Assembly: GCA_009760855.2 (NCBI GenBank)
Contig: WPIO01000041.1
Location: forward strand, 2,710,001-2,774,000
Origin: Cristatella mucedo
Lineage: Eukaryota > Bryozoa > Phylactolaemata > Cristatellidae
Reading direction: 5' to 3'
Length of the DNA stretch: 64,000 nt
Below are positions 2,427 through 43,602 of the stretch, piece after piece. The position numbers were made by a program, and so were the translations under genes. Below the pieces are notes generated by a model. The model did not search any database. It saw only the letters and a program-made list of their open reading frames with translations, and had not been told where the DNA came from. Every line of letters starts with the position of its first letter. Position 1 is the stretch's first letter.

Positions 2427-5400
2427 CTCTCAGCGTTCGAGTCGAATCCAGGTAGCGCAAGTGGGCATCATCGCCAAGCCTGACCTGGCGGTAAGCCAGG
2501 CTGTGACCTTTGCCACCGGAACATTTCGGAGTACTCTGGTGGCACAGCTCCGGTGCCGACATACTGCTTGCTCTTCTTCCTATGCAATGCTCTGCACTAA
2601 AACGCTCGGCGCTGCTTCGTGAAAGTGCTGCACACATCCGGCGCTCGGTTGAGCCAAAGTCAACCATCTCTGCTTTGGCACTTTGCAGCATCACGACTGT
2701 CCACTGGCTGAAACCAGCGCTGCTACAAGAATCTCTAAACCCCACTCCAGTCCTCGTGACTTTGCAGTGTCCCAGAGGCTAAGCACTGCATTAGCAGCAA
2801 TACCGCAGCAACCGGGAGCTAGTCGCTTTAGTTCCGCTGAGCGCACCGCAGCAGTCTCCAGAGCTGCTATCACTGCTATCCTACAGTCCAAGTGTCAAGC
2901 CAAGACCAGAGTTCGGCCGGCTCTGGAGTTGCACCGACCAATATCAAGGTCGCCTGCACACTGCTACGCACGCCGGACTGTCCCCTCACTCCCAACTATC
3001 TCCATGCCCGACTGTTTCCAGGCGCGTTCGATTCAAGTGACTTAACTAGTGATTATAGACGAAATCCGGGCCACACTAGAAAAAAGCTGGCAAAAGCGGG
3101 AGCGTGGCTGTCGGTGGCAGCACTCGTCGCTCGTCAGCTAGTGGCAGGGCGCCTTGTAGTCTGCTCTTCGAACACGGCACACCGGACCTCGGCACACCGG
3201 ACCTCGGCACACCGGACCTCGGCACACCGGACCTCGGCACACCGGACCTCGGCACACCGGACCTCGGCACACCGGACCTCGGCACACCGGACCTCGGCAC
3301 ACCGGACCTCGGCACACCGGACCTCGGCACACCGGACCTCGGCACACCGGACCTCGGCACACCGGACCTCGGCACACCGGACCTCGGCACACCGGACCTC
3401 GGCACACCGGACGGACCTCGGCACACCGGACCTCGGCACACCGGACCTCGGCACACCGGACCTCGGCACACCGGACTCCGGCACACCGGACCTCGGCACA
3501 CCGGACCTCGGCACACCGGACCTCGGCACACCGGACCTCGGCACACCGGACCTCGGCACACCGGACCTCGGCACACCGGACCTCGGCACACCGGACCTCG
3601 GCACACCGGACCTCGGCACACCGGACCTCGGCACACCGGACCTCGGCACACCGGACCTCGGCACACCGGACCTCGGCACACCGGACCTCGGCACACCGGA
3701 CCTCGGCACACCGGACCTCGGCACACCGGACCTCGGCACACCGGACCTCGGCACACCGGACCTCGGCACACCGGACCTCGGCACACCGGACCTCGGCACA
3801 CCGGACCTCGGCACACCGGACCTCGGCACACGCACGAGCGGGATGGCACCGAGCTAGCACGGCCCAAAGGCAGTTCCTTAAAGCTTATTTCGCCGCACGA
3901 GGGTCAAGGCTGGTCAGCTTTGGAGAGCCTGCATGCTGATAAGACAGTGGCCCTGGAGGAGCGCTGATGGCAAGGCAAATCAAATAGACATTGCGTGGTT
4001 TTGGTCACACGATCTCCTGAAACAGCGGGCCGTGTGCATTACCACCTGCATGGTGGGTCTCCAAGGCTGCCGAACGTAGAGATTCTATCCTCCCGCAGAC
4101 CCTAGCCTGCTGCTCGCTAACAACCAACCAACCAACCAATGGCCAAGGTGGTACTAGCGCCAACGAAGAGAACTGGCGCGAATTGCATTTTTCTCCGGGC
4201 AACCTTGAAGTGTGAGCCTTGTTGATGCCGTAGAGTAATTCCAAAAATTTGAATTCTTGCCGGCCAGCAAAATGACAACAAGCATAACGTGGTCAGCTGT
4301 GACACGCACAGGACCATAATAATAATAATAATAGCACACTTGATAAGCGCCCTCAGAGAACTCAAGCTCTTTCTAGGCGCTTTACATTTGCTGCAATGGA
4401 AACATGATCGAGTGGTAGTGGTATCATGCTTTATTAACAACATGAATAACATGGTTAGGGTGACAAGCACTGGGTCAGCATGCAAGTGTGGTTAATGGCA
4501 CCATGCAAAAGTGTAAGAACGCATAAGCACCTACGGCAAAATCAGAGGGACCCATAAATGCTGTGATAAAAAGGTGGTTTTTCATTTCTTTTTAAATGTG
4601 GTCAAGTCAGGGGATGTCGTGACAGAAGCCGGGAGTGAGTTCCAGGCTTTGGGAGCATCCGAACTACAGGCACAGCCTCCCAAGGTTCTGAGGTACATAA
4701 GAGGTGCTGGTATACGGCTAGATTCAGAAAAGCGGGTGATAACGACGCTTAGCCTGATGGAGAAGTAGATCTGATACGTAGACTGGAGCCAAAGAATGAA
4801 GGAACCTAAAAGTGAGCGACAAAACCTTGACAGTCAATCCATTGCTTGACTGGGAGCCAGTGCAGGTCGGCGAGAACTGGTGTGATGTGGCAACTGCAAC
4901 GCTCACGACAGATAAGCCTAGCTGCAAAGTTTTGCACCAGCTGTAAGTAACTGATTGGACATGCCGGTAGACCAGCCAGCAGTGAGCTACAGAAGTCAAG
5001 ATAAGATGTCACAAATGCATGGATCAACTTAGATGTGGTATCCTTGTCTAAACAAGTCCGAATTTCAGCAACGTTATGTAGTTGAAAGTAGGCAGACTTG
5101 ATTTTGGACCTGATGTGGTCATCTAATGAAAGGTCACTTTGGAACATGGCACCTAGATTTCGTGCAGATTCAACAGGAGATATGCTGACAGAGCCGATTT
5201 TGAGTGTTAGCCTTTCCAATGTCTGAATCACACTTGGTTTGCCCATAACTAGTAAGTTGGATTTTATCACCATTCAATTGAAGAAAAAATTTGCTGACAT
5301 CCATGTGTGGATGTTTTCAATACACAGCAAGGTAGCTGAGAGAATTTGATGTGCTCGAAGGCTGGCAGGGATCAAAGCAATGGTACAACTGAGTTCATCC

Positions 5401-34278: not shown

Positions 34279-35214
34279 TGCACTGGTGCAGCTCTCAGCT
34301 TAGCCGCGATGGGAGCCCTTGCCTAAGAGGGGGGGGGGTCGACTAGGGCGCCTAGTACAGACCCAGCTCCTGACTCACCTAGCTCAGGTTAGAATGGAGC
34401 TTTATGCAGGCGATGCGGTTAGGAGATGGAGCGACTAATGTGGTTGTCTTAGCGGGTTCGACTTGGACAGCTAGTACAAGCCCGACTCCTGGTCTACCCG
34501 CTAAAGTTAGAATGAAGCCTGGTGCAGACGTTGCGGTCAGGATGTGCACCGACTAATATGCTGAAGTAGAAATAGCAGCGGCGCGCGAGGTCAGGAGTTG
34601 AAAGGAGAGAGAATATAATGAGACGAGTGAGAGCTTACTCGGGCAGCTTTGGTAGTCGAGAGAGACTACGCCCCGAGAGCTGAGAGAGCTGGGGTAGTCG
34701 AGCAGGGACTACGCCCCGAGAGCTCAGAGCTGCAGCTTGGTAGTCGATGCGAGACTACGCTTCGAGAGCACGAGAGACGAACCTACGGCGACGAACAGCT
34801 AAGTGTAACTTAGACTGCGCAGTTGTGTTCTGCCGGCTACTCAGTTAGCTGCTCGTATCTTGGGGTGCTGTAGCAACCCGCCTTCGCAATTGCAAGCGAC
34901 GCGCGCATAGGTTAGTGTATTATACGCGGGCTTCGGGAGTTCGCGAAGTTAACTCCGTCAGGCCGGTACGCGGCGCGTAAACGCACAGGGTAGTTGGTTA
35001 TACTCGGGCTTCGGGAGTTCGCGCAGTTAACTCCGTCGGTCCGGTACGCGCCGCGTAAAGCGCTTGCGCCGGCGCGTAACCACTACTAACAGGCCCACAA
35101 TAAACTGTTGCTTTCGGCACCCAGTTGTGGCCGCCTGTGTTTTAACCGCACTGCTGCACTGCATCACACAGTCCACCGGTAGAGAACCGGGGGACGAACT
35201 TCTACGCGGTTACA
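34279..35214 (+). repeat. 5' LTR (936 bp)
   Basis: Starts TGCACTGGTGC and ends GGTTACA. It contains AATATAATG (TATA-like, near 34613), three GTAGTC...GACTAC hairpins (34652, 34694, 34740), a 78-bp-spaced direct repeat (from 34921 and 34999) and AATAAA at 35099-35104. Confidence 0.93.
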
Positions 35215-35216
35215 TT

Positions 35217-35234
35217 TGGTGACCCTGCTTTTGA
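35217..35234 (+). other. Candidate primer binding site
   Basis: TGGTGACCCTGC begins two bases after the 5' LTR, the expected position for a tRNA 3'-end complement. The tRNA is not assigned here. Confidence 0.6.
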
Positions 35235-35271
35235 TTCGAAACACTTGCAACGTTCTTGATTGGACGTGGGG

Positions 35272-36729
35272 ATGGCGTCGTTTAACGGTTCGGGGCTATT
35301 GAATAACTCCGGCCCAGCGTTCGACATTCTGCAGGCGAGCATAAACGATCGCGCTATTTTTGCTTCGATCAGTCGCTATTTGACTGAGCGTTTACGCGTG
35401 CTTGAGGAAGAGAACGCGCAGCTACGCGCGGCGGCGGCTTCGCGGGTTAGCCGCCCCAGCGCCAGCACACCAGCCGGGTCGGTAACTTCGCCGCCGACCG
35501 GCACCCCGCCAGCTGCGCCGCACGGTGCTCCGACCGTACTTCCTTCGCCATCGCAGTACGCGGTCGGTCTCTTACCGCACCCGTAGGGGTATGCTGCGCC
35601 CACCGCCTTGCGACGCGCCGAAGGTTACGCCCCATACGTTACGACGTGCCCGGCAGGAGTCGCTCCGCCGCACGCTGCTCATGCTTCGCACGCTGCTCAT
35701 GCTTCGCACGCTGCGACCGCTATCTTTCCTTCACCCCGCGCGGAGCCTTTTTCTGCTAACCCTGCTTCCGGTGGCGCGGCAAGCTATCCGCGGCCGGACC
35801 ATTCGGAAAAGCCACAGGCGCACTCGGACGCCGCCCTTATTTTCGCGCCGGCGGCTAATGCGAGCGGAGACTACGCCCGACCTGTCGCTACCCCGCGCGC
35901 TGAGCAGACTCCTCGCACGGCTGAGCCGGCATTGCCGAGCCGGATCTTCGTTGTGCCCGCACCCACAGCCTCATTTGACGGGAGCGTAGAGGCCTCACCG
36001 CTGCAACTGGCACCTTTCCGGGGGGACCTGACGGACTCCTTCCCAAGGTTGATCAGCGACTATGAGGTACTTTCTAGGTCCTGCGGATGGTCTCCGGACC
36101 TTCAGCTATTGCGCTTGGGGGCATATTTTCGCGGCCGAGCGCTCGACGTATATTGCTCGGTCTATGAACGGCTCTGCGCTGAGCCAGGCCAGCGATGTAC
36201 ATTTGAGGAAATGAAAGGTGAACTGGTGCGAACGTTCACCGCTGGCGTGCGTCGCGATGCTGCTCGCGGGGCCCTACACGGTTGTCGCCAGGGCGCTTCG
36301 CAAAGCGTTTATGATTTCTATAGACACCTTGTAGATACTGCAGCCGTCGCTTACCCTACTACTCCGCAGGCGGACCGTGACGCTATGGTCCTCTCCTTGT
36401 TCATTGGGGGCCTTCATCCCGACATTAGCGGCGCCGTCTTTGCCAAAGACTGTGCCTGCCTAGACGAAGCTCTAGCTTTCGCTGAAAGATGCGAAGCCAA
36501 CCCTCGCTTCTTCAGTCGCGGGGCTGCTTCTGCCGTGCACGCCGGCGACCAAGGCCGCCCATACCCACGAGGAAAGGATAGGGCCCCTACTTCGCGCGAT
36601 ATAGAGAGTAAGGTGGATGCATTGGCCGGGCAAATGACCAAGGTGTGTGACCTGCTTGCCGAGGGGAAGAGGGAAAACTTCGACCCCACCCGTAGACAAT
36701 CGTACGAGCCCCCGCCCGGCGCCGCGTAA
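35272..36729 (+). pseudogene. Ty3/gypsy gag, interrupted by an in-frame TAG
   Basis: ATG at 35272 opens a frame with an N-terminal helical segment (YLTERLRVLEEENAQL), then a Pro/Ala-rich stretch. TAG at 35584-35586 stops it. The same frame continues to a TAA at 36727-36729 with a capsid-like (retrotrans_gag) region, roughly 35990-36510, including LAPFRGDLTDSFPRLISDYE and AVYDFYRHL-type sequence. The CCHC zinc knuckle that should follow lies in the +1 frame at 36779-36820. The TAG could be a point mutation or a natural recoding site; one copy cannot tell. Confidence 0.8.
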
Positions 36730-36778
36730 GCCCTTTAATTCTTCATCCGGCTTCCATACCAAGGAAGGCCGCCCCCTC

Positions 36779-36820
36779 TGCAGGATTTGTTCCAAACCAG
36801 GCCACACCGCTGGTAACTGC
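36779..36820 (+). other. CCHC zinc knuckle (nucleocapsid), out of frame with gag
   Basis: CRICSKPGHTAGNC fits C-x2-C-x4-H-x4-C. It lies in frame 2 within an open stretch that ends at TGA 37220-37222, while gag is in frame 1. This is evidence of a frameshift, either programmed or by mutation. Confidence 0.88.
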
Positions 36821-37237
36821 CCACAGGCCGACCTGACCATCGGGCGTAGGCCATTCGCACACAACAGTCGGCGGTCCGACGACCGGGTGCAGGCTGCCAT
36901 GGGTCACAGGAATGGCTGGGCGGACGCAGGACGTGGCAGGCCGTTCCATTACGAGTCGGCTGATCGAAGCCCTAGCGAGCCAGTACGCTACAATCCAGGT
37001 GGTTCCCCTCCACACCTTTCGGCCTGGCAACCCCATGGGCCGGAATCTTCCGGTTCTCTTGGTGGGAGTAGGGACGCGAACTATGCTTCGGCTGGGTGGA
37101 TACCTTCATCCTCGACCGGCGTCCAGACACAGCCTATGGCTGGCCAGGTATCTGAGAGCGGTTTTGGTCGGGATGGCTGCGGTTTCTGGGACGCTCGGTC
37201 GGCACCGTCTCAACAGGAGTGACTAGCACGGGCGCCG

Positions 37238-40200
37238 ATGCGGCATGAAGCCGTGGACACCGCCCCCCCCCCCGCCCCACACACCATCGCCCCACACACC
37301 ATCGCGCTGGTGAAGGTGAATGGTGTCCTGATCCCTGCACTATGGGACACCGGTGCGAATATTTCCTTGATATCGGCCTCCCTCGCCCAACGGTTGTGTC
37401 TCCCCTTATCGATGGTGTTTGTTCGGGCCTCCAGTATAACGGGTTCTACCCTACCTATAATCGGGGCCGTGACAGCGAGCGTGCAAGTGGGAAGCATCAC
37501 CCGCGAGCACCAATTTTATGTCACCACCGAGTCTCTGCAACCGCTGCTGCTGGGTACCAACTTTCTTGCTACTCTCCCGCCCGTCACGTACGACTATAGG
37601 CACGGAGCCGTGCAGGTGGGTGACCACCATCTACCGCTTGTAGGTCCCTCTGAGGCTGTACCTCGTCCGCGCCAGGTGTGCCTTGCGACAGACATCACGA
37701 TTGCCCCACGCTGCCAACGCTTACTGCAGGGCGTAATGGAGGGACCCCCTACATTAGGTCTTCTCCTTTTCGAGGCAAATGCTGACCGACTTAATGGTAA
37801 AGGGCTCACAGCTGCTCGGGCCGTGGTGGCTCCGATGGGCGGACTTCTGCCAGTTAGAATCTTAAATATGTCAACATGTTCGGTTTTTCTGAAAAAAGGG
37901 ACCTGCCTCGGCTTCGCTGAACCGGTGTTCCCTGCCGCCGACTCTCCTGACAGACGGCCCCCCACCAACCGCGTGGGCTTCGTCGGTACGGATAGTGTGC
38001 AATTCAACCTATCCCAGTCGGATCTCTCTGAGACCCAGAAAAGAGCCCTCACTCAATTGTTGTCGACCTTTTGCGATGTATTCGCGACCAACAATCTGGA
38101 CCTGGGCCTAATGGACTCTGTCACCCACAGGATTGACACTCGCAACGCAGCGCCTATTCACTGTAGGCCGTATCCGGTCCCCCAGGCCCTGCGACACGAA
38201 ATTGTCCATCAAATCGACGAAATGTTGGAAGGAGGAATCATTGAGCCCAGTGTTGGCCCGTGGTCCTCTCCTGTCATCCTGGTGAAGAAGAAGGATGGTA
38301 CTTACCGGTTCTGCGTAGACTATAGGAAGTTGAACTCGGTCACTGTTAAGGACTGTTATCCGCTACCTCGACCCGATGAGGTCAGCCAGTTGTTGGGTGG
38401 GGCACACTACTTTAGTACGCTAGATTTAGCATCGGGATATTGGCAGGTTGCTGTTCACCCCGACGATAGACAGAAGACTGCGTTCACCACTTATCGAGGG
38501 AAATTCCAATTTTTGAAAATTAGTTTCGGGCTATGTAATGCGCCTAGCACATTTCAGCGTGCCATGGACTATTGTCTAGCCAATCTCAACTGGTCCGAAT
38601 GCCTTGTCTACCTAGACGACATTCTGATATTCTCGAGAACCTTTGAGGACCATTTGTCGCGTCTGTCGATAGTCTTGGAGCGCCTACGCTCCAATGGTCT
38701 TAAGGTAAAACCGTCAAAATGCCAATTCGCGCGGCAAACAGTACGCTACCTTGGGCATATGTTGTCATCTGCCGGGATGCGGCCAGACCCCGAGAACGTC
38801 GCCAAGGTGAAGGCATACCCGCGACCACACTCGCTCGCCACAGTGCGTCAGTTCCTGGGGTTGGCGTCATACTATCGCAAGTTTATCCCTGCTTTTGCTA
38901 AAGTGGCTACACCGTTGACCAATCTGCTCCGCAAGGCCAAGCGTTTTGAATGGACTGCAGATTGCAAACAAGCATTCGCTGTTCTCCGGGACCATCTGAG
39001 TAGGGAGCCGGTTCTTCGATTTCCAGATTTTTCAATACCCTTCGTGCTCTGCACTGACGCAAGCGCAGCTGCTGTAGGGGCAGTGCTAGGACAAGTAGTT
39101 GATGGCAAAGAGCACCCCGTCGCCTACTACAGCCACGTCTTAAACGATACCGAACGCCGTTATTCGACTGTCGAACGAGAGGCTCTTGCGGTAGTGACTG
39201 CCGTACGCCACTTCTGCGGGTATCTGTATGGACACAAGTTCTTGGTCCTCACCGACCATCAACCACTCGTATGGGTCCTGCGAGGCAACCATGACTCCAA
39301 CCGCTTGGCTCGGTGGGGTCTTGAATTGCAGGAGTACGACATGGAGGTCCGGTACCGTTGCGGCAAGGCTAATTCCAACGCCGACGCCCTCTCGCGTGTT
39401 CCTACTGAACCGGAGCATCAAGTAGCTAATGCTGTTATGGCCGCTGTGGCTGACCCAACCTTCGTCCGCGAGGCTCAAAATTGTGATCCGTTGCTGTACT
39501 GTGTACTGGCCACGTTACAGGGCCATGATCGAAGCAACTGCTCTGCTGAGCATATCCGCTATGCCAACGCTGAGCTGGACATGTTTGCAATCATGCCGAA
39601 CGGCTGCCTTTACCGAAAGGATCCAGCTCGGCGAAACAGGCAACTAGTTTTACCGGCTCACCTGAGGGAATGCGTCTTGCGAGAATGCCATGCCGGCCTC
39701 TTTGGAGCTCATCTAGGGCGACAGAAGACGCTTAAAAAAATTCAGGATAAGTATTTCTGGCCAAGCATGACCGAGGACGTCGCTACCTGGGTGAGGACGT
39801 GCGTTTCATGCCACACTAGAAAGCCCCCAAAGGAGAGGGCTCGGGTGCCCCTCCAAAGCATCCCCGTAGAACGACCGTGGCAGAGAGTCGCCATGGACAT
39901 CGTGCAGATGCCTGTCTCTGGAGCCGGAAACCGCTATCTGTTGGTGATGACCGACTGTTTCACCAAGTGGCCAGAGGTTCGCGCGATTCCCGACCAAACG
40001 GCCTCCACGTGTGCACGCGTGTTCGTTGAGGAGATTGTATGCCGACATGGCGTACCCGAGCAAATCCTCTCAGATCGTGGTGCTAATTTCCTTTCTCGAA
40101 TGATGGAACGCGTGTGCCGCCTACTCTCTGTTGAACGGCTCCATACATCCCCGTATCATCCTCAAACAGACGGTCTAGTTGAACGTTTTAATCGTACGCT

Positions 40201-41140
40201 GGTAGAGATGCTCTCTATGTACGTGAGGACGGACCAGCGCGACTGGGATACGTATGTGCCCTACGTACTTTTTGCTTACCGCACGAGCTATCACGATTCG
40301 GTTCGGTGCACGCCTTTCTTCATGGAGCATGGGAGGGAGGCACGGCTACCCGTAGACCTGGTCTTGCCAGTCGACGATCCTTGTGACCCAGTGGACGATT
40401 ACGCGATCGCGGTCCGTGATAAACTCATTGGGGGCCTTCATCCCGACATTAGCTGCGCCGTCTTTGCCAAAGACTGTGCCTGCCTAGACGAAGCTCTAGC
40501 TTTCGCTGAAAGATGCGAAGCCAACCCTCGCTTCTTCAGTCGCGGGGCTGCTTCTGCCGTGCACGCCGGCGACCAAGGCCGCCCATACCCATCAGGAAGG
40601 GATAGGGCCCCTATTTCGCGCGATATAGAGAGTAAGGTGGATGCATTGACCGAGCAAATGACCCAGGTGTGTGACCTGCTTGCCAAAGGTCAGAGGGGAA
40701 CCCTCGAACCCCCCACAAAGCAGTCGTATCAGCCGCGAGGTAGGCCGTTCGTACAGAACAGTCGGCGGCCCGACTACCGGGTTCAGGCTGCCATGGGCTA
40801 CAGAGATAGATGGGTGGACGCAGGACGTGGCATAACGTCCCAGTACGGGTCAGCTTATCGAAGCCACGGAGAGTACGGGCCACCATACCCCAGTCGCGAG
40901 GGTTCACGGCCACACTCGGGGGATTGGCGATCATTCGGGTCGGTGTCGCCCGGTTCTCTTGGTCCAAGTGGGTACGTGGGCCGTGCTTCGGCTGGTTGGG
41001 CACCTTCGCTCTCGACAGGCGTCCATACCTATCCCAGGGCTTACCAGGCCTCTGAGAGTGGTTTCGGTCTTCATGGCTACGGCTTCCGGGAGGCTCGACT
41101 GGCCCGCCACAACAGGAGCCACTACCGCCGGCGCCGATGA
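37238..41140 (+). CDS. Ty3/gypsy pol (PR-RT-RNase H-IN) fused to a gag C-terminal segment, 1300 aa
   Basis: Open for 1300 codons. Residues by position: aspartic protease DTGA at 37-40; RT with YLDD from residue 458; RNase H D607 in LCTDASAAAVGA; integrase HHCC zinc finger about 807-860; catalytic D887, D946 and E982 with D-x58-D-x35-E spacing (MDIVQMP, SDRGANF, DGLVERFNRTL). From about residue 1065 the protein changes into a partial gag copy (IGGLHPDIS onward), so the integrase lacks its normal C-terminal region. The frame is uninterrupted through the junction. The usual start is unclear because the same frame is closed by TGA at 37220-37222 just upstream. Confidence 0.9.
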   Translation: MRHEAVDTAPPPAPHTIAPHTIALVKVNGVLIPALWDTGANISLISASLAQRLCLPLSMVFVRASSITGSTLPIIGAVTASVQVGSITREHQFYVTTESLQPLLLGTNFLATLPPVTYDYRHGAVQVGDHHLPLVGPSEAVPRPRQVCLATDITIAPRCQRLLQGVMEGPPTLGLLLFEANADRLNGKGLTAARAVVAPMGGLLPVRILNMSTCSVFLKKGTCLGFAEPVFPAADSPDRRPPTNRVGFVGTDSVQFNLSQSDLSETQKRALTQLLSTFCDVFATNNLDLGLMDSVTHRIDTRNAAPIHCRPYPVPQALRHEIVHQIDEMLEGGIIEPSVGPWSSPVILVKKKDGTYRFCVDYRKLNSVTVKDCYPLPRPDEVSQLLGGAHYFSTLDLASGYWQVAVHPDDRQKTAFTTYRGKFQFLKISFGLCNAPSTFQRAMDYCLANLNWSECLVYLDDILIFSRTFEDHLSRLSIVLERLRSNGLKVKPSKCQFARQTVRYLGHMLSSAGMRPDPENVAKVKAYPRPHSLATVRQFLGLASYYRKFIPAFAKVATPLTNLLRKAKRFEWTADCKQAFAVLRDHLSREPVLRFPDFSIPFVLCTDASAAAVGAVLGQVVDGKEHPVAYYSHVLNDTERRYSTVEREALAVVTAVRHFCGYLYGHKFLVLTDHQPLVWVLRGNHDSNRLARWGLELQEYDMEVRYRCGKANSNADALSRVPTEPEHQVANAVMAAVADPTFVREAQNCDPLLYCVLATLQGHDRSNCSAEHIRYANAELDMFAIMPNGCLYRKDPARRNRQLVLPAHLRECVLRECHAGLFGAHLGRQKTLKKIQDKYFWPSMTEDVATWVRTCVSCHTRKPPKERARVPLQSIPVERPWQRVAMDIVQMPVSGAGNRYLLVMTDCFTKWPEVRAIPDQTASTCARVFVEEIVCRHGVPEQILSDRGANFLSRMMERVCRLLSVERLHTSPYHPQTDGLVERFNRTLVEMLSMYVRTDQRDWDTYVPYVLFAYRTSYHDSVRCTPFFMEHGREARLPVDLVLPVDDPCDPVDDYAIAVRDKLIGGLHPDISCAVFAKDCACLDEALAFAERCEANPRFFSRGAASAVHAGDQGRPYPSGRDRAPISRDIESKVDALTEQMTQVCDLLAKGQRGTLEPPTKQSYQPRGRPFVQNSRRPDYRVQAAMGYRDRWVDAGRGITSQYGSAYRSHGEYGPPYPSREGSRPHSGDWRSFGSVSPGSLGPSGYVGRASAGWAPSLSTGVHTYPRAYQASESGFGLHGYGFREARLARHNRSHYRRRR

Positions 41141-41560
41141 GGCAGGAAGTGGTGGGCACCAGTGCCCATGCACCGCACACTCTTGCACCGGTGATGGTGA
41201 ATGAGGTGCTGGTTACCGGACTTTGGGACACAGGTGCCAATATCTCACTGATGGCGGCCTCTTTTGCCCGCAAGCTGTGCCTTCCCTTGTCGATAGAGTC
41301 AGTTCGGGCGTCCAGTATCACGGGTTCTTCCCTGCCTATAATAGGGGCCGTGACAGCGAGCGTGCAAGTGGGAGGTATCACCCGTGAGCGCCAATTCTAT
41401 GTCACCACCGAGTCTCTGCAGCCGTTGCTGCTGGGAACTGACTTTCTTGTCTCCCTGCCGCCGGTCACCTACGACTATGGGCGTGGAACCGTGCAGGTGG
41501 GTGACCACCATCTACCACTGGTGGGTCACTCGGAGGCTTTAGCTCAGCCACAACAGAGCC
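40432..41560 (+). repeat. Internal duplicated gag-protease segment inside pol
   Basis: Matches 36403-37690 in direct orientation. The first ~250 bp are nearly identical to gag. The rest is clearly diverged and lacks the ~100-bp block carrying the zinc knuckle. It ends near a long C-run at 41560-41573, after which pol-tail-like sequence resumes. Confidence 0.88.
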
Positions 41561-41580
41561 CCCCCCCCCCCCCGAGCTAA
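41137..41580 (+). CDS. Second protease domain (partial), -1 frame overlapping the pol ORF end
   Basis: ATGA overlap at 41137-41140 with the 1300-aa ORF. It encodes LWDTGANISLM and AQVxLGTDF-like sequence of an aspartic protease. It aligns with the first protease (residues 1-140 of pol) but with substitutions, and ends at TAA 41578-41580 after the C-run. It is probably a passenger of the duplication; whether it is made is unknown. Confidence 0.7.
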   Translation: MRQEVVGTSAHAPHTLAPVMVNEVLVTGLWDTGANISLMAASFARKLCLPLSIESVRASSITGSSLPIIGAVTASVQVGGITRERQFYVTTESLQPLLLGTDFLVSLPPVTYDYGRGTVQVGDHHLPLVGHSEALAQPQQSPPPPPS

Positions 41581-42046
41581 GGTCAGGCAGAGCAGTTCGC
41601 CGAAGCTGGTGGATGCGCAGCTAGGCATAGTAGGCAAAACTAATGCCAGTGTTTCAGTTGCAGGCGACGATAAATCGACGCCGAGGCCTCGGACTCGTCC
41701 ACATCAACCACGGCCAACCGGCTTGGATGCGAACATTCCCACGGTTACTAGGTTCTCGGTTGCGACGCCGCCAGCTGTGGACCCGGCTCCACCACAGTTT
41801 CGCGGCAGCGATGCGGCTCTGCCGGAGCCAGCTTCACAGACAGGTCACCATATCGGGGCCGCTACTCGCAGCATACATGAAGGTGGAGCGATGCGTCCGA
41901 ACTCTCGCCCTCTGGCCGAGCGGCAGGGCGACCCAGAAGACGACGACCGCCGTTCTTCAACTGTGCATGAGGATAACCTATACTATTTGCAGCGCCGCGA
42001 CCGCGAGCGTAGGCCTAATCCTCGATATCGAGATATGTGGTGCTAA
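41570..42046 (+). pseudogene. Displaced C-terminal pol tail
   Basis: In the same frame as pol (frame 2). It is Pro/Arg-rich and ends RRSSTVHEDNLYY...PRYRDMW before a stop at 42046. Its position before the polypurine tract and its basic, Pro-rich character suggest the original end of the integrase ORF, cut off by the inserted gag-protease segment. Confidence 0.5.
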
Positions 42047-42201
42047 TGCAAGGCCTCCGGAGCGTTGCATTAACACCACCCCGGAAGGGCCAAAGTGTCG
42101 GATCAGTCCATTGAGGGGCTCCATGCTTTTTTTTCCCACTTGGGCCAGTGGTTTTTTTTTAACGCCGGACCCCGGACTGATCAGATACGAGGCCGTATCT
42201 C

Positions 42202-42218
42202 GCGAGGAAGGAGAGTAA
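42202..42218 (+). other. Polypurine tract
   Basis: Purine-rich GCGAGGAAGGAGAGTAA immediately before the 3' LTR, the expected plus-strand primer site. Confidence 0.8.
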
Positions 42219-43117
42219 TGCACTGGTGCAGCTCTCAGCTTAGCCGCGATGGGAGCCCTTGCCTTAGAGGGGGGGGGGGGTCGACTAGGGCGCCTAGTAC
42301 AGACCCAGCTCCTGACTCACCTAGCTCAGGTTAGAATGGAGCTTTATGCAGGCGATGCGGTTAGGAGATGGAGCGACTAATGTGGTTGTCTTAGCGGGTT
42401 CGACTTGGACAGCTAGTACAAGCCCGACTCCTGGTCTACCCGCTAAAGTTAGAATGAAGCCTGGTGCAGACGTTGCGGTCAGGATGTGCACCGACTAATA
42501 TGCTGAAGTAGAAATAGCAGCGGCGCGCGAGGTCAGGAGTTGAAAGGAGAGAGAATATAATGAGACGAGTGACAGGGCGGAGGGACAGCTTTGGTAGTCG
42601 AGAGACTACGCCCCGAGAGCTGAGAGAGCTGGGGTAGTCGAGCAGAGACTACGCCCCGAGAGCTCATGGCTGCAGCTTGGTAGTCGATGCGAGACTACGC
42701 TTCAAGAGCACGAGAGGCAAACCTACGGCGACGAACAGCTAAGTGTAACTTAGACTGCGCAGTTGTGTTCTGCCGGCTACTCAGTTAGCTGCTCGTATCT
42801 TGGGGTGCTGTAGCAACCCGCCTTCGCAATTGCTAGCGACGCGCGCATAGGTTAGTGTATTATACGCGGGCTTCGGGAGTTCGCGAAGTTAACTCCGTCG
42901 GTCCGGTACGCGGCGCGTAAACGCACAGAGTAGTTGGTTATACTCGGGCTTCGGGAGTTCGCGCACTTGCGCCGGCGCGTAACCACTACTAACAGGCCCA
43001 CAATAAACTGTTGCTTTCGGCACCCAGTTGTGGCCGCCTGTGTTTTAACCGCACTGCAGCACTGCATCACACAGTCCACCGGTAGAGAGCCGGGGGACGA
43101 ACCTCTACGCGGTTACA
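42219..43117 (+). repeat. 3' LTR (899 bp)
   Basis: Same termini and features as the 5' LTR but with a deletion of about 37 bp removing most of the second direct-repeat copy near 42965, plus scattered substitutions. AATAAA is at 43002-43007. Confidence 0.93.
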
Positions 43118-43400
43118 GTCTTGATGTATCATGTTTTTGGTAATTAAGGTGCTTCGGCGCACGAGGGGGCAAAGCCACTGGTGACTAGTAGCAATACTAG
43201 GCCAATGGGCGGACTGCATCCTGGTTGGCCAGTTAGGTTAGTTAACGCCCGAAGGGCTGAAGAGCCACCGCACGAGCTTGGCCCGTTCAGGCAACGCCCA
43301 AAGACTCCGAGAGCCACCGCACGTCGCTGTATGATAGGTTGCTCCACGACAGTTACGTTACTGAACGTAGGCTCACACTTAACCACGGAGCCGATGATGT
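43118..43400. other. Unassigned DNA right of the LTR element
   Basis: Short ORFs on both strands, none recognised. A direct repeat (GAGCCACCGCACG) lies at about 43261-43325. Confidence 0.4.
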
Positions 43401-43401
43401 T

Positions 43402-43602
43402 TTCTTCTAGTGAATACTAGGTCATTCTGGAGCAGCAGTGTACATCCACACTTCGTCTAGATGCTACTTTCTTCTAGTGAATTCTAGGTCATTCTGGAGC
43501 AGCAGTGGACATCCACACTTCGTCTAGATGCTACTTTTTTCTAGTGAATTCTAGGTCATTCTGGAGTAGCAATGTACATCCACATTTCGTCTAGATGCTA
43601 CT
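43402..43602. repeat. 67-bp tandem repeat, three copies
   Basis: Copies begin TTCTAGTGAATxCTAGGTCATTCTGGAG at 43402, 43469 and 43536, each ending CGTCTAGATGCTACT. Confidence 0.92.

Follow-up and report, generated by a model that had tools for sequence, protein, structure and literature searches.

Does the open reading frame that passes from the integrase of a Ty3/gypsy-type retrotransposon directly into a gag segment encode a new protein, and which kind of event has generated it? The element in question spans positions 34279-43117 of the analysed window, a 64-kb stretch (contig C354, 2710001-2774000) of a 572-Mb genome in 688 contigs, as defined by repeat search and alignment (Table 1). Our analysis suggests, with a probability of roughly 0.68, that the locus is a same-orientation chimera of two integrated elements of one family that were joined at the DNA level by illegitimate recombination. 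The pol frame (37223-41140) displays the domain order of the Ty3/gypsy type, with Pfam matches to protease (residues 30-116), reverse transcriptase (RT, 354-513), RNase H (602-705) and the H2C2 (811-868) and rve (883-980) domains of the integrase, and the element is enclosed by a pair of LTRs with the TG...CA ends typical for this type. The Pfam match of the first gag is weak (E 0.0083, under its cut-off), and its coding sequence is broken by an in-frame stop and a change of frame.

Table 1. Features of the element in window coordinates
Feature	Position	Strand	Basis
5' LTR, TG...CA, from full-length element	34279..35214	+	Repeat search; alignment with other copies
First gag, type A, CCHC knuckle	35272..37222	+	Open reading frames, sequence, knuckle motif, weak Pfam gag match
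pol of full-length element: protease, RT, RNase H, integrase H2C2 and catalytic core	37223..40426	+	Pfam; alignment ends of relatives
Sole new junction, integrase core to gag, TC common to both	40425..40427	+	Comparison with L009, L010, L011, L015, L016
Gag capsid C-terminal stretch of second element, type-A-like	40427..40648	+	1/165 differences to own gag, 2/165 to L012 (40427-40591)
Type-B nucleocapsid-like region without zinc knuckle, and second protease	40649..41553	+	Near L011 (to ~41340), L013, L014, L018
Old protease-to-integrase-tail join of gag-PR-only lineage	41553..41580	+	Common to L013, L018, L019, L022, L023
Remnant of the integrase C-terminal region, and pol tail; type-B-like as far as ~41860, type-A-like from ~41873	41581..42218	+	Windowed comparison
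3' LTR, from second element; no TSD with 5' side	42219..43117	+	LTR alignment, six polymorphic sites

The uninterrupted passage of the pol frame from the integrase core into gag, which had been pointed out in the first-pass annotation, is evident from the list of open reading frames and from Pfam, and the described ATGA overlap with a second protease is equally present, with the pol TGA at 41138-41140 overlapping the ATG of the protease frame (41056-41580; Pfam PF13975, E 1.4e-10). The fusion had been placed near 40432, but the sequence and the full-length copies locate the exact site between 40426 and 40427, where a microhomology of 2 nt (TC, 40425-40426) is present in both parents. A search with the pol protein returned 1185 matches, and among the best 120 listed, 119 align to at least residue 1040. 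Beyond residue 1060 run 56 of these 119, and 49 of the 56 stop at residues 1061-1073, with codon 1069 marking the start of the gag part. The other seven listed relatives stop at 1078-1126, and a comparison of the gag part with these longer-aligning proteins gave no match better than E 4.7. The five full-length copies L009, L010, L011, L015 and L016 proceed into the integrase C-terminal region, which is shortened in L010; a profile of this part in relatives detects nothing in the window but the end of the core, with a remnant at the DNA level near 41590-41640.

The join was also followed at the level of the genome. A search with positions 40300-40600, in which the best candidates were scored, yielded 40 scored matches from 60 candidates; seven of these cover the integrase part and 32 the gag part, and the locus itself alone spans both. 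All of the other integrase-side copies (7/7) read on without gag. The possibility raised earlier that the chimera has itself transposed is thus unsupported, since among the 40 scored matches the junction occurs only at its own locus, with no second copy. No integrase-gag fusion was detected at E ≤ 1 among 2121 candidates of a protein search with residues 1069-1305, and neither the junction string in viral contigs nor pol in prokaryote contigs found a match, which agrees with the genome size of 572 Mb. We rejected the idea that the fusion yields a functional protein because the frame would have been preserved fortuitously, with one chance in three, because part of the integrase C-terminal region is missing and gag is broken, and because fusion matches were lacking in the protein search.

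The composition of the second gag-protease segment (copy 2) bears on the identity of the second parent. As claimed previously, its divergence from the upstream segment (copy 1) is uneven, with differences at 1 of 165 nt and then at 22 of 135, followed by windows of ~68-89% identity, and the two copies do not show the uniform identity that the first-pass annotation had named as contrary to its proposal. Copy 2 is 130 nt shorter than copy 1 at the zinc-knuckle block. The motif is found in all six type-A segments (copy 1, L009, L010, L012, L015 and L016) and in none of the eight segments of type B (copy 2, L011, L013, L014, L018, L019, L022 and L023). Copy 2 begins type-A-like at 40427 and changes to type B somewhere around 40614-40649, and the comparison of sequences supports a distinct ancestry of its near-identical first stretch and the remainder. 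Partial gene conversion, which had been suggested as a later step, may have affected the first ~200 nt but need not be invoked; a copying or conversion event could also explain why the type-A-like tract starts exactly at the join. A different combination of both types is found in L011 (C148:67500-77490), a full-length element carrying a type-B gag-protease cassette, up to the equivalent of window position ~41340, within a type-A backbone bordered by an exact 4-bp target-site duplication (TSD). This copy is probably an RNA-level recombinant that has subsequently transposed.

Of 12 mapped gag-side loci (L009-L016, L018, L019, L022 and L023), a non-random set picked from the scored matches, five are the full-length copies named above and another five (L013, L018, L019, L022 and L023) possess LTRs and a gag-protease part that is followed by an integrase tail, the RT and integrase core being absent from in between, here termed gag-PR-only; the alignments of L012 and L014 stop short, so that these two are assigned to neither class. 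Two gag-PR-only copies, L018 and L019, span the complete unit from one LTR to the other, with L018 nested in a related element. All five align with the window rightwards from 40425/40428, in case of L013, L018 and L019 with a continuous match through the tail and the 3' LTR, and the join between protease and tail at 41553-41580 is common to each of them (5/5 aligned). Since this join is shared, it predates the chimera, and the segment in the window is therefore not an insert; instead, the region from 40427 to the 3' LTR constitutes the 3' half of a second element. Based on these comparisons, the left part (34279-40426) is identified as a full-length type-A element cut within its integrase, and the right part (40427-43117) as a 3' half derived from a gag-PR-only element with a mosaic of A-like and B-like sequence. 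This donor is itself a mosaic, since its tail is B-like to ~41860 and A-like from ~41873. The description of an internal insert, behind which the displaced pol tail would resume near 41570, has thus to be revised: a single new junction rather than two is followed by the gag-PR-only 3' half, and the shared join assigns the tail to the second and not to the first element. The first-pass annotation had proposed to search for further copies of the junction beside a run of C; the join there is present in 5/5 gag-PR-only copies, and the long run (15 nt, 41559-41573) is confined to the window among the six aligned copies. Codon-usage scoring of the pol tail gave a weak signal and was left out of the conclusions.

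The same data bear on two further explanations. A tandem duplication of gag and protease in one element, with subsequent divergence or partial gene conversion, would agree with a first stretch of 165 nt that nearly equals the upstream gag, but it can be virtually dismissed, as already argued in the first-pass annotation for a simple duplication, since the remainder represents a distinct type-B lineage present at seven other loci and since gag-PR-only copies match 40425/40428-43117 without a break, which contradicts it. An assembly error, by which the contig would fuse two separate elements, has in its favour the repetitive nature of the family, the run of C at 41559-41573 and the near-identical 165-nt stretch directly following the join. 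Such an error appears unlikely, however, as the new join is non-homologous, with 2 nt shared, and located outside any repeat, unlike a misjoin based on overlap, and as the protease-to-tail join recurs at five other places.

What distinguishes joining of DNA from joining during reverse transcription is found at the outer ends of the element. Integration creates a TSD, and the flanks in the window (GAGG and GTCT) match in only one of four letters and thus do not form the 4-bp TSD of this family. In five sister copies with both ends at hand, L013 having a truncated 5' LTR, the TSDs are either exact in 4/4 letters (L009, ATGT; L010, GAGT; L011, CCTA) or match in 3/4 (L018 and L019). We read the missing TSD in the window as reflecting recombination after insertion, with the assignment to Ty3/gypsy relying on domain order and sister copies. 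The pedigree of the LTRs was followed by comparing all seven pairs and counting those differences for which both variants are each found in three or more other LTRs, in a sample that is small (14 LTRs, 8 other copies). Such shared polymorphisms account for 6 of 23 differences between the LTRs in the window, compared to 2/14 in L009, 1/13 in L011, 0/4 in L010, 0/19 in L018 and 0/9 in L019, and to 6 of 16 in L013, whose 5' LTR is truncated and rearranged. At the six sites, the 5' LTR of the window carries the states of L009_3, L011 and L012, and those in its 3' LTR are found in L010, L018 and L013_3. Five more differences cluster by a gap in a tandem repeat (34631-34640); here the alignment is less reliable, and no more than one or two other LTRs match. 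The total divergence in the window (23/884) is slightly above that of L018 (19/863) and L013 (16/794). A single reverse transcription gives identical LTRs, and the combination of unlike outer LTRs with the lack of a TSD, as found here, is taken as a sign of recombination between independent insertions (PMC1950507). In the account of unequal recombination in PMC7251063, the products include intact elements without TSDs.

For these features we favour end joining of DNA over template switching, since the TSD is missing and the outer LTRs are unlike. Breaks would have occurred in the integrase core of the first element and in the gag of the second, and the broken ends would have undergone end joining at a 2-nt microhomology under loss of the intervening DNA, so that the outer LTRs and flanks would stem from two different insertions. 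The product is most likely a dead, non-transposing copy, as gag is broken and the integrase C-terminal region is partly missing. In the alternative account, full-length and gag-PR-only RNAs would have been packaged together, with minus-strand synthesis starting on the short RNA and moving over from gag there to the integrase sequence of the long RNA, and the product integrated as one unit whose LTRs and TSD changed later. Jumps of reverse transcriptase likewise use short microhomology, and the single new join with 2-nt homology would suit such an event, as would the existence of mosaics of both types in the family, where the B cassette of L011 in its A backbone with perfect TSD suggests co-packaging and homologous switching; together with the mosaic donor, it suggests that switching at the RNA level occurs in this family. 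For the window element, this route appears rather unlikely, given the absent TSD (1/4 letters) and outer LTRs that differ at six family-wide polymorphic sites instead of deriving from one reverse transcription, although gene conversion of an LTR and mutation of the 4-bp TSD could mimic the pattern. From the initial proposal of template switching between two related elements, the two related elements are thus retained, but not switching as their way of joining.

The reading as a DNA-level recombinant places the locus close to the complexes of adjacent LTR-retrotransposon insertions described by Devos et al., 2002, which, as far as summarised in PMC1950507, are similarly chimeric, with unlike outer LTRs and no TSD. 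According to the same summary, these complexes recombine via their LTRs and retain a third LTR, whereas the window element is joined illegitimately within integrase and gag and has no LTR left in its interior. With the template-switch complexes of Triticeae (Sabot and Schulman, 2007, PMC1950507), it shares the fusion of two parents of the same family, but none of their three characteristics (0/3), namely TSDs, outer LTRs that are alike, and an LTR in the interior. The gag-PR-only lineage resembles TR-GAG elements (PMC8704663) in having a gag without RT and integrase and a related full-length partner. In contrast to these, it has kept a protease, which is connected to an integrase tail, and lacks the zinc knuckle in gag; L013, L018, L019, L022 and L023 also match the second protease segment and are thus not gag-only. 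As chimeric LTR elements (PMC1950507) and gag-only non-autonomous elements (PMC8704663) are already known, the locus is within known kinds, and the chimera probably represents an ordinary accident of chromosome breakage and repair rather than of copying. It illustrates that ordinary recombination between a full-length retrotransposon and a shortened relative can give rise to an apparent integrase-gag fusion gene, and that a chimera in which the frame is preserved should not be taken for a new protein.

The repeated, knuckle-less gag-protease-only lineage is a modest case of a non-autonomous element that may provide its own Gag and protease. The active-site motif of the protease shares one open frame with the integrase tail, up to the usual pol stop, in L013 and L019; L022 has a single open frame over this stretch, within which the DTGAN motif was not found, and in L018 the frame breaks ahead of its end. 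We tentatively consider the lineage as a parasite that would be mobilised in trans by the full-length element, contributing its own knuckle-less Gag and a protease in the integrase-tail frame, borrowing RT and integrase, and swapping its cassette upon co-packaging, as in L011. A further rearrangement in the family is found in L013 (~3365-3385), where the truncated 5' LTR is joined to the gag end of another member with TAGC shared.

Several additional features concern the family and the surrounding window. The first gag terminates with TGA-CTAG in the same frame as pol, in a sequence (TGACTAG, window 37211-37232) that is kept in five of six type-A copies (the window, L009, L010, L012 and L016; L015 differs) and that we take to resemble a stop-readthrough context. 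Directly 3' of the 5' LTR, TGGTGACCC at 35217-35225 is presumably a candidate primer binding site, possibly for tRNA-Trp. Among the 11 other open reading frames of the window, Pfam detected one weak RT fragment and one match under cut-off, and nothing else. An array of tandem repeats of high identity at 3175-3831 lacks stops in several frames and has one Pfam match under cut-off. A 78-nt tandem unit within the LTR (window 34904-35059; L009 7829-8142) varies in copy number among elements, and just beyond the 3' LTR, a 67-nt unit is repeated three times in tandem (43393-43602).
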